Assembly: GCF_000217795.1 (NCBI RefSeq)
Contig: NC_015681.1
Span: 1,727,244-1,791,243, forward strand
Reading direction: 5' to 3'
From: Thermodesulfatator indicus DSM 15286
Lineage (GTDB): Bacteria; Desulfobacterota; Thermodesulfobacteria; Thermodesulfobacteriales; Thermodesulfatatoraceae
Length of the DNA stretch: 64,000 nt
A model generated the notes under the pieces. That model was not told the origin of the DNA. It ran no database searches and saw nothing but the letters and a program-made list of their open reading frames with translations. Below are positions 39,322 through 46,110 of this stretch, piece after piece (the first letter of the stretch is position 1; each line of letters starts with the position of its first letter). Made by a program: the position numbers and the translations under genes.

Positions 39322-39412
39322 GGAGGGGTGCCCGAGCGGCCGAAGGGGGCGGCCTTGAAAGCCGCTGAGGGCCTAGTGCCCTCCGGGGGTTCGAATCCCT
39401 CCCCCTCCGCCA
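39322..39412 (+). tRNA. tRNA-Ser, anticodon TGA
   Basis: A 91-base class II tRNA with a long variable arm. Acceptor GGAGGGG pairs with CCCCTCC. The anticodon stem GCGGC/GCCGC holds loop CTTGAAA, giving TGA. The variable arm GAGGGCCTAGTGCCCTC is a perfect hairpin. CCA is encoded. Confidence 0.96.
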
Positions 39413-39495
39413 AAATAGTGATATTTTGTTTTACGGGAAAGCTTTATTAGCGCTTGCAGGAAAGGAAATATTTCGTTAGTTTATAAATAACTCTC

Positions 39496-39588
39496 GGAGG
39501 GGTGACCGAGAGGCCGAAGGTGCTCGCCTGCTAAGCGAGTGTGCCCCCAAAAGGGGCACCGTGGGTTCGAATCCCACCCCCTCCGCCA
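39496..39588 (+). tRNA. tRNA-Ser, anticodon GCT
   Basis: A 93-base class II tRNA with the same acceptor as the gene 84 bases upstream. The anticodon stem CTCGC/GCGAG holds loop CTGCTAA, giving GCT. The variable arm GTGCCCCCAAAAGGGGCAC is a clean hairpin. CCA is encoded. The open frame across it on the other strand is spurious. Confidence 0.96.
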
Positions 39589-39656
39589 CACCTCAACTTC
39601 AACTCTCTTTTCTGTGTTTTTAATTTTGCCATTTTGCCGACAAAATAGTTTCACTG

Positions 39657-39672
39657 CCGACGTTTTTGTCGG
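39657..39672 (+). terminator. small hairpin after the tRNA-Ser pair
   Basis: CCGAC (39657-39661) pairs with GTCGG (39668-39672) across GTTTTT, followed by ATATTTTA. It may end the tRNA-Ser transcript, though the stem is short. Confidence 0.35.
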
Positions 39673-39820
39673 ATATTTTATAGTTATTCCCAATTAATTT
39701 TCGCCTGGCCCCACCTGCGCTGCAAAGAGAATAGCTGTCTATACAGAATTAGGTTGACTAGATTGGTTATATTTTGCCCTATAGTATCTCAGCTAAAAAT
39801 TTTAACTAAAAATTCTAAAA

Positions 39821-39837
39821 TGGCATCGATATTGCAC
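39821..39837 (+). promoter_or_regulatory. sigma-54 promoter for the cytochrome c3-like gene
   Basis: TGGCAT-CGATA-TTGCAC is a near-perfect -24/-12 element (consensus TGGCAC-N5-TTGCW), with GG and GC twelve bases apart. It lies 36 bases before the start at 39873, itself preceded by AAGGAGG. Sigma-54 promoters need an AAA+ activator; none is encoded in this window. Confidence 0.8.
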
Positions 39838-39872
39838 TTTTAAAAATCAAAGCAGCAATTAAGGAGGCTAAA

Positions 39873-40341
39873 ATGAAAAAACTTTTATTTATATTAGCGG
39901 TCTTAATTTTAATCGGTTCTATAAATGCTTTAGCTGAAAGAGATACTAATAATGTTTCAAAAAAAAATAGTTTTACCTTTGGTAAAGGAGTATCAAGTTA
40001 AAATTGGTAAGGCCTCATTCCCTCACGCCAAGCATTTTATGGATGCAGGCTACTCTTGTGGAACTTGTCATCACGAAAAAAAGGTCGAAGTAAACGGCAA
40101 AATGCAATCCGTTCCTTTAACAACAGAGAAAGTTAAAGCCATGATGGCTGAAGGTAAAAATCCTTTTCAGTGTAAAAGTTGCCATGGCGATCTAAGCCGC
40201 AAGCAATATAAAAAGCTCTTTCATAAAAATTGTTTGAGTTGCCACAAGACCCTTAAAAAAGAAGGTAAAAATGTCCCTACCAAATGTAAAGAGTGCCATA
40301 TAAAGCCTAAGAGACGTAAGGCCGTTTTGGAAGGTTGTTAG
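39873..40341 (+). pseudogene. tetraheme cytochrome c3-like gene split by a one-base frameshift at an A9 run
   Basis: From ATG 39873, after AAGGAGG, a 42-codon frame encodes a signal peptide (MKKLLFILAVLILIG, then SINALA) and stops at 39999. The cytochrome frame is open from 39952 and is +1 to it. It encodes four CXXCH sites (CGTCH, CKSCH, CLSCH, CKECH) plus an axial-type FPHAKHF. The frames meet in the nine-A run 39959-39967; eight As would give one continuous 155-residue periplasmic cytochrome. Without the signal peptide heme cannot be attached. It could be a sequencing error, a real mutation, phase variation or slippage. Confidence 0.85.
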
Positions 40342-40353
40342 CTATAATTTTTG

Positions 40354-40404
40354 GGGAGAGGTCTTATATTCCCCCCTCCCTCCCAATTAGGAATGACCTC
40401 TCCC
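40354..40404 (+). terminator. inverted repeat after the cytochrome gene
   Basis: GGGAGAGGTC (40354-40363) and GACCTCTCCC (40395-40404) are perfect 10-base arms. An inner ATTCC/GGAAT pair closes a C-rich loop. It may end the cytochrome transcript; no long U run follows. Confidence 0.5.
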
Positions 40405-40463
40405 TCTTCATTAAATTGATTTTCATTAAATTGAAACTTTTTTTCCAGTAAAAAAGCAATATA

Positions 40464-41849
40464 ATGAGCTTCATGGCCAGGATAGTATATTTTTTGTTCT
40501 GTCTTTCTCTGTTGATTACGGGATGTTCGGCTAATCGTCCTGCCCTTACTCAAAATATTAAACCTCCTGAAAAATATCTTTTGGCTTCAAGTGATAGGCA
40601 GTCTCAAGTAAGCCTCGATCATTGGTGGGAAAGCTTAGGAGACAAAGAACTAAATAACCTTGTTCAGGAACTTCTTTCTTCAAATTTTCGTTTGCAGGAA
40701 GCCGCCGCCAAAATAAAAGCGGCTGAGGCTTTTTTAAAGGAAACCAGGGCCGCTCGGTTTCCGAGGTTAGATTTTTCTTTTTCCGCTAAACGTGAGCGAC
40801 AGCCTGTTTATTCCCTTCCGGTTAAGCCTTCTGTTACGGGTAGTTTTTCCGGAAGCCTTATGGCTTCATACGAAGTAGATGTTTGGCAGAGGCTTAGCCA
40901 CGCCAAGAAGGCATCTTATTATCAACTTATGGCTAGCCAAGAAAACCGTAGAGCTCTGGTTCAGAGCCTTATAGCCCAACTAGTAAGTGAATACGTATCA
41001 GGGGCCTATTTTTCATGTGAAAAAGCTATCCTAGAAGAACAGCTGGAAATACAACGACGCTATCTTGGAGCCCTGCGTAAACGTTATCGATTAGGGCTAG
41101 TAGAGCCTTTTATTCTTGAGCAGGAAGAACGGCTGCTTGCTAGTCTTGAAGAAGAGAAAGAGAGGCTTGAAGGAGAAATTATAACTGCCAGACAAAAAAT
41201 ATCTCTTCTTCTTGGAAAGTATCCCAAACCCTGGCCTATTTCCGCTAATGTTTGTCGCCTGGAAATCCCTCCTCCACCGGCAGGTTTGCCCTCAGAGCTT
41301 TTAGAGCGCAGGCCCGATGTTCTGGCGGCAAGAGCGCGTCTCCTTTCGGCAAGTGAACAGGTAGCCAGTGAAAAGGCAGCTCTATTTCCTAAAATAACCC
41401 TTACGGCCCAGGAAGGCCGAGTTTCTAATGCCCTTGTCTCTTTACTTAACAACGAAAATAGGTTTTGGGAGTTGGCTTTATCTCTTACCCAACCTATTTT
41501 TGACGCCGGAGCACGTAAGGCCAGGGTAAAAGAAGCTCAAGCCCGTTTTAAAGAGGCTCAAGCTGTTTATGCGCAAACAGTTCTTCAAGCCTTCTTTGAA
41601 GTAGAAAACGCCCTCATGCTAGAAAATAACTGGCGTAAACGTCTTGAACTATCTGAAAGACAGGAAAAAGCCGCCTGTAATGAAGAAAAGTTAAAGTCTT
41701 TACAAGCAAAGCTTGGAACAATTTCTATTTTAGATTATTTAAAAATTAAACACTTGTGTCTTGAGAGAAAGAGAAAGACACTTTCAACAAAGAAAAACCT
41801 GTTATTGGCAAGAATTTCTCTTTTCAGGGCCTTAGGAGGTGGTTTTTAA
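40464..41849 (+). CDS. RND efflux outer-membrane lipoprotein (NodT/TolC family)
   Basis: The 461 residues begin with a lipoprotein signal ending in LLITGC. Then come SLDHWWESLGDKELNNLVQELL, ELLERRPDVLAARARL and LTQPIFDAGARKARVKEAQA, the two-repeat pattern of this family. It forms the trimeric outer-membrane duct of a tripartite pump. The start is ATG 40464 or 40473; no ribosome site is evident. The adaptor and pump genes follow directly. Confidence 0.93.
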   Translation: MSFMARIVYFLFCLSLLITGCSANRPALTQNIKPPEKYLLASSDRQSQVSLDHWWESLGDKELNNLVQELLSSNFRLQEAAAKIKAAEAFLKETRAARFPRLDFSFSAKRERQPVYSLPVKPSVTGSFSGSLMASYEVDVWQRLSHAKKASYYQLMASQENRRALVQSLIAQLVSEYVSGAYFSCEKAILEEQLEIQRRYLGALRKRYRLGLVEPFILEQEERLLASLEEEKERLEGEIITARQKISLLLGKYPKPWPISANVCRLEIPPPPAGLPSELLERRPDVLAARARLLSASEQVASEKAALFPKITLTAQEGRVSNALVSLLNNENRFWELALSLTQPIFDAGARKARVKEAQARFKEAQAVYAQTVLQAFFEVENALMLENNWRKRLELSERQEKAACNEEKLKSLQAKLGTISILDYLKIKHLCLERKRKTLSTKKNLLLARISLFRALGGGF

Positions 41850-41851
41850 CA

Positions 41852-43009
41852 TTGCTTACCGCTATCAGACGTAAAACCGTTATTCAGATAGTTCTGGTAT
41901 TATTCGTATTAGCCATAGGTTTAGGCATTGCTCATCACTTTATATCTACCAAGCCCAAGGTCCCGCGACGAAAAGTAAAGCCTCATATCCCTGTGGTCCA
42001 AGTAGAAACTATTAAACCTCAAAATTTTCTCGTAACTATTGAAAGTTTCGGTACGGTTAAAGCACTGAGAACAGGAAGCATTGTTTCTGAAACAAGTGGC
42101 CGTGTAATATATATTTCTCCTAATTTGCTCCCAGGAGGGCGATTCAAAAAGGGAGAAGTTTTAGTCCGTCTTGATTCCAGTGATTATAAGGCGGCCTTGG
42201 CCATGGCCAAAGCTGAACTAGAAGAAGCGAAAAGGGCCTATGAAGAGATTAAAGCTCAGGCCGAAGCGGCCAGGCAGGAATGGGAAGACGTCCTTAAGGA
42301 AAAGACACCTCCCCCGCCTTTAGTGGTTAAACAACCGCAAATAGCTGCAGCTAAAGCGAGGATAAAGGCGGCTCAAGCCAAATATGAAAAGGCTCGCTTA
42401 GATCTTGAACGTACCGTTATCAGGGCTCCTTTTGATGGCCTGGTAACAGAGAGCAAAATAGAGCTTGGCCAATACCTTGGGAAAGGCAGCCTTGTTGCTA
42501 AAGCTTATGAAGTAAGGGCCGTAGAAATAGCCGTGCCCCTTTCGTTAGAAGAGATAAAATGGATACAGGTTCCAGGGTTCAATGCAAAGAAGGGCTCAAA
42601 GGCCAAAGTTTCCTTAGAAACCTTAAATGCCACCTGGTCTGGCAGGGTGGTAAGGTCTGCGGCCAAGGCCAATGAAAAGACCCGCCTGATAGATATCTAT
42701 GTAAGGGTAAAGAATCCTTTAAAGGCTAAAGTGGCCCTAGTCCCTGGACTTTTTGTAAAAGTAGAACTAACTGGTCGTACTTTAAAAAACGTCTTTATAT
42801 TGCCTAGAAATGCTCTTTATTTTCAGGAAGGCAAATGGCTGGTTTATACCGTAAAAAACGGCCGTTTAATTCAAAAAGATATAAAAGTTGTCCTTTTTGA
42901 CCAACGTGACAGGGCTATAGTACGAGAAGGGCTTAAACCGGGTGATCAGTTAATCCTTACCAGACTTTCAAAGCCAGTCCCTGGAATGAAGGTGCACATA
43001 AAGCCATGA
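41852..43009 (+). CDS. RND efflux periplasmic adaptor (membrane fusion protein)
   Basis: The 385 residues have one N-terminal membrane segment (about 10-30), a split lipoyl domain (ETSGRVIYISP ... LDLERTVIRAPFDGLV), an alpha-hairpin (about 105-185) and a beta-barrel. It links the pump to the outer-membrane duct. The start is TTG, with GGAGG about 12 bases before. Its stop overlaps the pump gene's start (ATGA). Confidence 0.93.
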   Translation: MLTAIRRKTVIQIVLVLFVLAIGLGIAHHFISTKPKVPRRKVKPHIPVVQVETIKPQNFLVTIESFGTVKALRTGSIVSETSGRVIYISPNLLPGGRFKKGEVLVRLDSSDYKAALAMAKAELEEAKRAYEEIKAQAEAARQEWEDVLKEKTPPPPLVVKQPQIAAAKARIKAAQAKYEKARLDLERTVIRAPFDGLVTESKIELGQYLGKGSLVAKAYEVRAVEIAVPLSLEEIKWIQVPGFNAKKGSKAKVSLETLNATWSGRVVRSAAKANEKTRLIDIYVRVKNPLKAKVALVPGLFVKVELTGRTLKNVFILPRNALYFQEGKWLVYTVKNGRLIQKDIKVVLFDQRDRAIVREGLKPGDQLILTRLSKPVPGMKVHIKP

Positions 43010-46000
43010 AAAATATAATTTCTTGGTTTGCTGAAAATCACGTTGCCGCCAATTTACTAATGGTGTTTCTGCTGGCGGCTGGGCTTTATAGCATTTTCAA
43101 TATCAAGGTAGAAATATTTCCAGATATTACCCTCAACGCTGTTCAAATAAGTGTGGAATACCGAGGAGCCTCCCCTGAAGAAATAGAAAGGGCCATTATT
43201 CGGCCTATAGAAGAGCGCATAATGGGGCTTTCCGGAATAGAAAGAGTTTATTCTAAGGCCACCGAAGGTCGGGGGCAAATTACCGTTGAGGCCACTCGAG
43301 GGTGGGACATAAATAAACTCTATGATGACATAAAAGTGGAGATTGATGGCCTTACCACCTTACCAAAAGAAGCAGAAAGGCCTATTGTCAGGCGAGTTTC
43401 AAGGCTTTTCCCGGTAATAAGTATAGCGGTTTATGGAGACGTTTCGGAAAAGATACTTAAAAAGTGGGCGGAACAGATTAAAACAGAGTTGCTTACTTTG
43501 CCTGAAGTAACAGAAGTATCTTACTTTGCCGTTCGGCCAGAAGAAATTCACATAGAAGTTCCCGAGAAAAACTTACGTAAATACAACCTTAGTCTCTCAG
43601 AAATAGCTCAGAAGATAAATCAGGAAAGCATAGATTTACCCGCCGGGCGTATTATCGAAAAAAGCCGAGAAATACTTTTAAGAGCGGAAGGGAAGCGCTA
43701 TTACGGAGAAGAATTCTTAAATATTCCTATAGTAACCGGGCCAGAAGGAGCGGAAATAACACTTGGTCAAATAGCCCAAATAAAGGATTCTTTTAGGGAT
43801 CTAAATGAAATTTCGGCCTATTTTCAGGACAAGCGCGCCGTAGTAGTTCAAGTATTTCGCTTGGGGAATCAAAATGTTCTTACTATTTCTAAAGCTGTAA
43901 ACAAGTACTTCCAGTCTCTTAAAGATAGGCTTCCTGATGGCATTCACGTTAAACTCTTTGAAGACTCTTCGCAGATATTAAAAGCCCGGCTTTTTCTTTT
44001 AGTCAAGAATCTCAGCATGGGCATGATATTGGTATTCGTAGTTTTAGGGCTCTTTCTTCACCCTAAGCTGGCTTTCTGGATAATGTTGGGTATTCCTATT
44101 GCCTTTGCTACTGCTCTAGGGCTTATTCCTCACTTTGGTGTCTCTATTAATATGGTTTCTTTATTTGCCTTTATTCTGGTGCTTGGCATTGTGGTGGACG
44201 ATGCCATCGTTGTGGGAGAAAACGTCTTTCATTTACGCCAAAAAGGGCTACCTCCTCTTGAAGCCGCTATCAAAGGAACCATTGAAGTAAGCGGGCCAGT
44301 TATTTTTTCGGTTTTGACTACTATGGCTGCTTTTGCCCCCCTGCTGTTTGCCTCAGGTGTTATGGGAAAGTTTATCTTTGTTATTCCAGTAGTGGTAATA
44401 GCGGTGCTTTTTGGTTCTCTTGTTGAGTCCCTTTTTGTTTTACCAGCTCATCTAGCGGCTACCAAAGGAAATATTTCCCCTGAAGGGATTAACTTTGTAG
44501 CTCGTGCTTTACAACGTTTTATATATGGACCATATAAAAGAGCTCTCGTTTTTTGTTTGCGCTGGCGTTATCTCACTTTAGCCGCGGCTATGGCTCTACT
44601 GATAGTAGTTTTTTCTTTATGGCTTGGAGGACGTATAAAATTTACGTTTTTCCCGAAAGTGGAAGGGGATGACATGAATTGTTATATCACCATGCCCGCT
44701 GGAACTCCGGCCAACGTAAGCCTTGCTATAGCCAAAGAAATAGAAAAGAAGGGCCTTGAGGTTGTAAAAGAATACGAGAAAAAATATGGTAAGCATCTGC
44801 TCAAATACTCCATGATAATGATAGGTGTGCACCAGGTCCGCCACGGTCCTAAGGCCGGTAAACCTGATATAGGTTCTAATCTTGCTCAGGTTACCCTCCA
44901 GCTTGTTCCAGAAGAAGAAAGGCCAGGAATTAGCAGTGCTCAATTGATACGAGAGTGGCGTAAAAAAGTCGGTGAGGTGCCGGGAGTTGAGGGTCTCTTA
45001 TTTCAAAGTGAGTTGTTTGGTTTAGGTAAGGCCGTAGACTTGGCTGTATCTTTAAAAGATGAAAAGGATTTACTTAGGGTAATCACCGAAATTAAAAATG
45101 AATTAAAGAAGATACCAGGGGTGCATGACGTTGAAGATAGCTTTTTACCAGGAAAAGAAGAAATAAAGCTTGTTCTCAAACCCGGGGCAGAAACTTTAGG
45201 AATAACCCTTGAAAGCGTAGCCAGGCAAGTGAGACATGCTTTTTATGGAGCAGAAGCTCTAAGAGTCCAGCGGGGAGAAGATGAAGTTCAGGTCTTGGTA
45301 CGCTATCCAGCCGAGGAACGTACAACTATAGCTTCTTTAGAGAATATGAGACTCCATCTCCCTGATGGGCGAGAGATCCCTCTGCTAGAGGTAGTGAATT
45401 TGAAATGGGGCCATAGTTATGTTTCTTTGGATAGACTTGATGGTCGAAGGGTAATTCATGTTCTGGCTGAAGTTGACGAAAAAATAGCCAGTGCCTCAGA
45501 GATAAGAAGATATCTGGCCACCCAATTTCTTCCAAAACTGAAAGAGCAATATCCGGACTTGACTTATTCCTTTGAAGGTGAAGGGCGACGTCAACAGGAG
45601 TCTATGAAAGATGTGATGAGGGCTTTTCTTTTTGCCCAGCTAATAATTTATAGCCTGCTGGCCATTCCTTTACGTTCTTATACTCAACCCTTGATTATTA
45701 TGTTTGCCGTGCCCTTTGGTATTATTGGTGCTTTTCTTGGTCACAAACTCATGGGGTATCACCTGAATATATTAAGTTTCTTTGGTATTGTGGGGCTTTC
45801 TGGCGTGGTGGTAAATGACTCGCTCATTCTTACAGACATCATAAACCGGCTGAGAGATAAGGCTAAAAATATGATGGAAGCGGTGGTTGAAGGAGCTTGC
45901 CGTCGCTTTAGGCCAATTTTACTGACCACTATTACCACGTTTGCCGGGCTTACACCGATGATACTTGAAAAAAGCCTTCAGGCAAGGGTGCTTATTCCTA

Positions 46001-46110
46001 TGGCTATAAGCCTTGGTTTTGGCGTCCTTTTTGCCACTTTTATCACCCTTATTATTATTCCTTGTGCCTATCTGGTACTTGAGGATATAAAAAAGGTCTT
46101 TAAGAGTTGA
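43006..46110 (+). CDS. RND-family inner-membrane efflux pump (AcrB/HAE-like)
   Basis: The 1034 residues show the two-fold repeat of twelve membrane helices and two large periplasmic loops. GIVVDDAIVVGENV (helix 4) has the proton-relay Asp pair. VNDSLILTDIINRLR is the helix-10 region and FRPILLTTITTFAGLTPMI helix 11. The substrate cannot be read; the subgroup with large first-loop charge resembles HAE1-like pumps. It is last in the efflux operon, with a strong terminator after. Confidence 0.94.
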   Translation: MKNIISWFAENHVAANLLMVFLLAAGLYSIFNIKVEIFPDITLNAVQISVEYRGASPEEIERAIIRPIEERIMGLSGIERVYSKATEGRGQITVEATRGWDINKLYDDIKVEIDGLTTLPKEAERPIVRRVSRLFPVISIAVYGDVSEKILKKWAEQIKTELLTLPEVTEVSYFAVRPEEIHIEVPEKNLRKYNLSLSEIAQKINQESIDLPAGRIIEKSREILLRAEGKRYYGEEFLNIPIVTGPEGAEITLGQIAQIKDSFRDLNEISAYFQDKRAVVVQVFRLGNQNVLTISKAVNKYFQSLKDRLPDGIHVKLFEDSSQILKARLFLLVKNLSMGMILVFVVLGLFLHPKLAFWIMLGIPIAFATALGLIPHFGVSINMVSLFAFILVLGIVVDDAIVVGENVFHLRQKGLPPLEAAIKGTIEVSGPVIFSVLTTMAAFAPLLFASGVMGKFIFVIPVVVIAVLFGSLVESLFVLPAHLAATKGNISPEGINFVARALQRFIYGPYKRALVFCLRWRYLTLAAAMALLIVVFSLWLGGRIKFTFFPKVEGDDMNCYITMPAGTPANVSLAIAKEIEKKGLEVVKEYEKKYGKHLLKYSMIMIGVHQVRHGPKAGKPDIGSNLAQVTLQLVPEEERPGISSAQLIREWRKKVGEVPGVEGLLFQSELFGLGKAVDLAVSLKDEKDLLRVITEIKNELKKIPGVHDVEDSFLPGKEEIKLVLKPGAETLGITLESVARQVRHAFYGAEALRVQRGEDEVQVLVRYPAEERTTIASLENMRLHLPDGREIPLLEVVNLKWGHSYVSLDRLDGRRVIHVLAEVDEKIASASEIRRYLATQFLPKLKEQYPDLTYSFEGEGRRQQESMKDVMRAFLFAQLIIYSLLAIPLRSYTQPLIIMFAVPFGIIGAFLGHKLMGYHLNILSFFGIVGLSGVVVNDSLILTDIINRLRDKAKNMMEAVVEGACRRFRPILLTTITTFAGLTPMILEKSLQARVLIPMAISLGFGVLFATFITLIIIPCAYLVLEDIKKVFKS

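Follow-up and report, generated by a model that had tools for sequence, protein, structure and literature searches.

The analysis of a 64-kb window (the whole stretch of Thermodesulfatator indicus DSM 15286 DNA that was analysed, to which all positions refer) showed that a tetraheme cytochrome c3-like gene on the forward strand is divided between two reading frames. The frames overlap and meet at a run of exactly nine A's (A9) at 39959–39967. The export signal is out of frame with the heme domain in T. indicus, whereas all eight orthologues from the genus and family (genomes G001 and G003–G009) encode the signal peptide and four hemes in a single frame. Our preferred explanation, held with about even confidence, is that the locus is the T. 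indicus copy of a conserved, exported cytochrome gene that was functional until very recently and was broken by a slip in the run. Considering all readings, the split most probably reflects either a mutation that arose very recently or a sequencing error, and not a new kind of gene switch.

The signal-peptide frame (42 codons, 39873–40001) starts at ATG 39873 and stops at 39999–40001. A Shine-Dalgarno-like AAGGAGG (39861–39867) lies 5 nt 5′ of this ATG, and in the alignment the same motif also precedes the intact orthologues L004 and L006. The frame translates as MKKLLFILAVLILIGSINALA followed by ERDTNNVSKK... and ends in the out-of-frame tail NSFTFGKGVSS. The cleavage site was assigned by eye between ALA and E, that is, after MKKLLFILAVLILIGSINALA and before ERD. 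This frame aligns to the N-termini of the intact orthologues. The heme frame opens at 39934, extends to the stop codon at 40339–40341 and encodes 129 aa from ATG 39952. At the A9 run, whose length is taken from one assembly, it is offset by +1 from the signal-peptide frame. Since the register difference is +1, a run shortened by one A or lengthened by two would fuse the frames, and the predicted junction-spanning sequence is DTNNVSKKIVLPLVK. A sequence-only reading had described this layout, with AAGGAGG, ATG, signal peptide, four CXXCH motifs one base off and the A9 run, and had stated that eight A's would complete the gene; all of these elements were found, and two further A's would serve as well.

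The heme frame carries four heme-binding motifs, with residues counted from ATG 39952. These are CGTCH (40057–40071, residue 36), which is followed by the conserved His41, CKSCH (40171–40185, residue 74), CLSCH (40231–40245, residue 94) and CKECH (40285–40299, residue 112). It scored 35.6 bits with Pfam Cytochrom_CIII (PF02085, cut-off 22.9) and 36 bits with Cytochrome_C7 (PF14522, cut-off 24.8). The orthologues in the eight related genomes are 56–87% identical to it. The heme frame is therefore not a chance open frame. All eight Cys of the CXXCH motifs are invariant in the nine sequences, as are eight His, four of which (His 25, 28, 41 and 91) lie outside the motifs. By their count and position only, these four are the putative distal ligands of bis-histidine ligation. 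Four heme motifs, four further His and a profile score above the curated cut-off are the features of a class III tetraheme cytochrome c3, and the gene belongs to a tetraheme cytochrome c3-like family that is conserved in Thermodesulfatator and close genera. Every NCBIfam equivalog cut-off lies far above the score of the family (e.g., TmcA, 29 of 114 bits). The EGC terminus is present in all nine orthologues, with an invariant Cys outside the heme motifs (residue 129, 40336–40338). This Cys may serve in a disulfide, in attachment or in metal binding. More distant c3-type relatives lack it, their sequences stopping at the fourth heme or just beyond.

The neighbourhood of the gene is also conserved. 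Two tRNA-Ser genes lie upstream on the forward strand (UGA, 39322–39412; GCU, 39496–39588); they were confirmed in all three relatives scanned and support orthology. An upstream TPR-protein gene on the opposite strand is present in seven genus members. Downstream on the forward strand, profiles identified genes for a NodT-type outer-membrane protein, an HlyD-type membrane-fusion protein and an RND permease (40464–46110). The NodT-type efflux gene is downstream in seven of the eight relatives (the exception is L011), and the membrane-fusion gene comes next in the relatives whose locus extends far enough. The position of the cytochrome between the tRNA-Ser pair and this efflux set (39322–46110) recurs in relatives, which suggests a functional or operon link between the periplasmic cytochrome and the efflux pump.

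The A run itself was absent from the relatives that could be aligned across the junction. The linker after the signal peptide differs in length among relatives. At the same site, Thermodesulfatator autotrophicus S606 reads ACC AAA GAA CTA GTT, and T. indicus reads TCA A9 TAGTT. Judged from these sequences, the simplest path is apparently that two substitutions produced eight A's and one A was then gained. In this path the linker AAA GAA CTA would have become AAA AAA ATA in T. indicus. A loss of two from eleven A's would also fit, and it aligns less well. In Listeria inlA, poly-A tracts near gene starts mutate approximately 1,000 times faster than average (PMC2831843).

The heme frame has been under strong purifying selection. 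Against T. autotrophicus, its dN was approximately 0.09 and its dN/dS 0.05–0.06, inside the range of 0.02–0.19 covered by the neighbouring genes (0.02–0.18) and the short signal peptide (0.19); these ratios are rough because dS is high to saturated, and saturation affects the low end of the neighbours' range. Under free drift along the T. indicus lineage, approximately 17–20 stop-creating changes would be expected in the heme frame, and none was observed. The absence of stops caps the unconstrained share of the lineage at roughly 15–18%, and the replacement counts put it at approximately 10% or less, both being rough values under saturated dS. The relative-rate test counted 9 replacements in the T. 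indicus lineage against 3, a difference that is not significant (p = 0.15). This selection, together with the retention of the four CXXCH motifs and the four further His, indicates that the break is either recent or not real. A decayed pseudogene is ruled out by the dN/dS, the lack of any stop and the complete set of heme ligands. The view that the retained motifs argue against long-standing decay, taken earlier from the sequence, is borne out by the same values.

In the preferred reading, a recent break by slippage would have proceeded as follows. Substitutions would have converted the linker codons behind the signal peptide to an A run, and a replication slip would then have lengthened the run, so that the heme domain lost its register in the sequenced clone. 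Translation initiated at 39873 would yield an exported stub of 42 residues. Covalent attachment of c-type heme requires export, and little or no holocytochrome would be expected from a heme domain that has no export signal. A minor share of transcripts with an altered A count may still yield some full-length protein; such leakage would be incidental and would not reflect an evolved mechanism. Elsewhere the genome carries many multiheme genes, among them an intact canonical tetraheme cytochrome c3 (G000:C1:1313692, 57.5 bits), so the loss of the split cytochrome need not be lethal.

Homopolymer runs were counted on both strands of the genome, which is a single contig of 2,322,224 bases. There were 369 A8 runs, 24 A9 runs, one A10 run and one A11 run. 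Twenty of the 24 A9 runs, this one included, lie inside ORFs of at least 120 aa, and only the run at 39959–39967 visibly splits a gene with intact relatives; the other A9 runs were assessed from the span of their ORFs, not individually by homology. In two samples of A8 runs, 26 of 30 and 65 of 72 were inside ORFs of at least 120 aa (approximately 91 in total, with a few T8 runs counted in the second sample). No break was found among the approximately 90 A8 runs surveyed in long ORFs, which makes gross homopolymer miscalling unlikely. Five adjacent ORF pairs near A8 runs were tested as possible breaks. A frameshift reading was rejected for four of them, which Pfam showed to be distinct genes (for instance LeuA beside a response regulator, or an integrase beside a proteasome-type subunit), and the fifth (L123) had no hits. 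The A9 runs were about one third as common as expected from the A7:A8 decay (approximately 1,920 A7 runs, extrapolated from the window, 369 A8 and 24 A9), which is compatible with selection against runs of nine.

These counts bear on the possibility of a sequencing or assembly error, in which the true run would be A8 and the gene intact and ordinary. We give this reading a substantial probability, well short of even. It agrees with the intact state of all relatives and with a gene that is otherwise free of signs of decay. Wrong homopolymer lengths are a common class of error, and a survey of prokaryotic frameshifts, covering approximately 25,000 lone cases validated by homology, expected most of them to be sequencing errors and fewer to be true indels (PMC3711429). 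However, approximately 19 other A9 runs and 91 A8 runs inside ORFs of at least 120 aa show no visible break, so miscalls are not frequent. Miscalls in a few per cent of the runs, which would amount to a handful across the genome, are possible. In either case the locus is a clean example of how a well-conserved gene can appear broken through one A in a homopolymer. A real ninth A would provide a natural frameshift in a thermophile, dated and testable, in which slippage rescue could be measured. A false one would call for a correction of the database entry, because annotation would label the cytochrome a pseudogene.

We consider it improbable that the gene is functional through slippage correction, with RNA polymerase slipping at the A9 run and a useful fraction of the mRNA carrying 8 or 11 A's. 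A run of nine A's is long enough for bacterial RNA polymerases to slip, and in Thermus thermophilus dnaX slippage at nine A's makes approximately half of the product the shorter form (PMC1088944). Blochmannia genes frameshifted in A/T runs do not evolve faster (PMC3017870). The strong constraint on the downstream heme frame would be consistent with such rescue, but recency explains it equally well. The scarcity of A9 runs against the A7:A8 decay fits a cost of slippage, but it also fits mutability. Against this reading, the change needed here is a deletion (−1) or a +2 insertion, which is the disfavoured direction. In A/T runs of E. coli and Buchnera, insertions dominate over the rare single-base deletions, and the survey that showed this saw no reading frame restored (PMC5574713). 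Programmed transcriptional slippage is recognised by a conserved slippery run, and none of the relatives aligned across the junction has the run, while all of them are intact. The downstream mRNA structure was not unusual (z = −0.05). The stronger proposal, that slippage is frequent enough to supply full-length holocytochrome so that a nearly neutral A9 allele persists in nature, is somewhat less probable again. Programmed −1 frameshifting was rejected on two grounds: joining the frames takes a shift of +1 (or −2), and the downstream mRNA shows no structure (z = −0.05).

Phase variation, in which the run would be kept as a switch that is on at A8 and off at A9, is very unlikely. The position of an A run near the 5′-end of a gene for an exported protein would suit a switch, and such runs are hypermutable (PMC2831843). 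Hypermutable tracts near gene starts nevertheless support a recent slip as much as a switch. The run is private to the T. indicus genome among the aligned relatives, all relatives are in the on state without it, and the product is a periplasmic electron carrier and not a surface antigen or a modification enzyme. Since the run is not common to relatives, an evolved switch is unsupported; with eight of eight orthologues intact and the aligned ones free of an A run, no run appears to have been kept by selection. The sequence-only reading was thus right in seeing a real cytochrome gene split at A9, and its suggestion of a phase-variable or slippage-corrected gene is not supported, given the intact orthologues, the missing run in those aligned and the less common deletion or +2 change that slippage correction needs. 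Two separate functional genes, with an internal start at 39952 giving a cytoplasmic heme-domain protein of independent function, are also very unlikely: ATG 39952 is preceded by a weak GAGA and not by a convincing ribosome-binding site, covalent c-type heme attachment requires export, and each orthologue is one exported protein, an architecture on which we rejected this reading.

The preferred reading, a conserved gene recently broken by a slip, can be compared with known systems. The closest intact counterpart is the T. autotrophicus S606 orthologue (NZ_LSFI01000019.1, L033 2908–3384), which is 86–87% identical over the heme domain and has the same signal-peptide layout, the same tRNA-Ser and efflux neighbours and all heme ligands. 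It differs in being a single frame with a linker that has no A run. The family shares with the class III cytochromes c3 and cytochromes c7 (PF02085, PF14522) the four CXXCH motifs, the four further conserved His and scores above the curated cut-offs, whereas it is set apart by a long, lineage-specific insert that separates heme 1 from heme 2 and by the invariant C-terminal EGC. The poly-A frameshifted genes of Blochmannia and Buchnera (PMC3017870) likewise have a single indel in an A tract while the remaining gene is constrained. However, their genomes are extremely AT-rich, with more than 100 coding tracts of A9 or longer, and some of their frameshifts are shared between species, whereas T. 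indicus has 43% G+C and its break is private to one genome. Thermus thermophilus dnaX (PMC1088944) also has nine A's in a thermophile gene, but the unslipped transcript gives the long product there and would give the stub in T. indicus.
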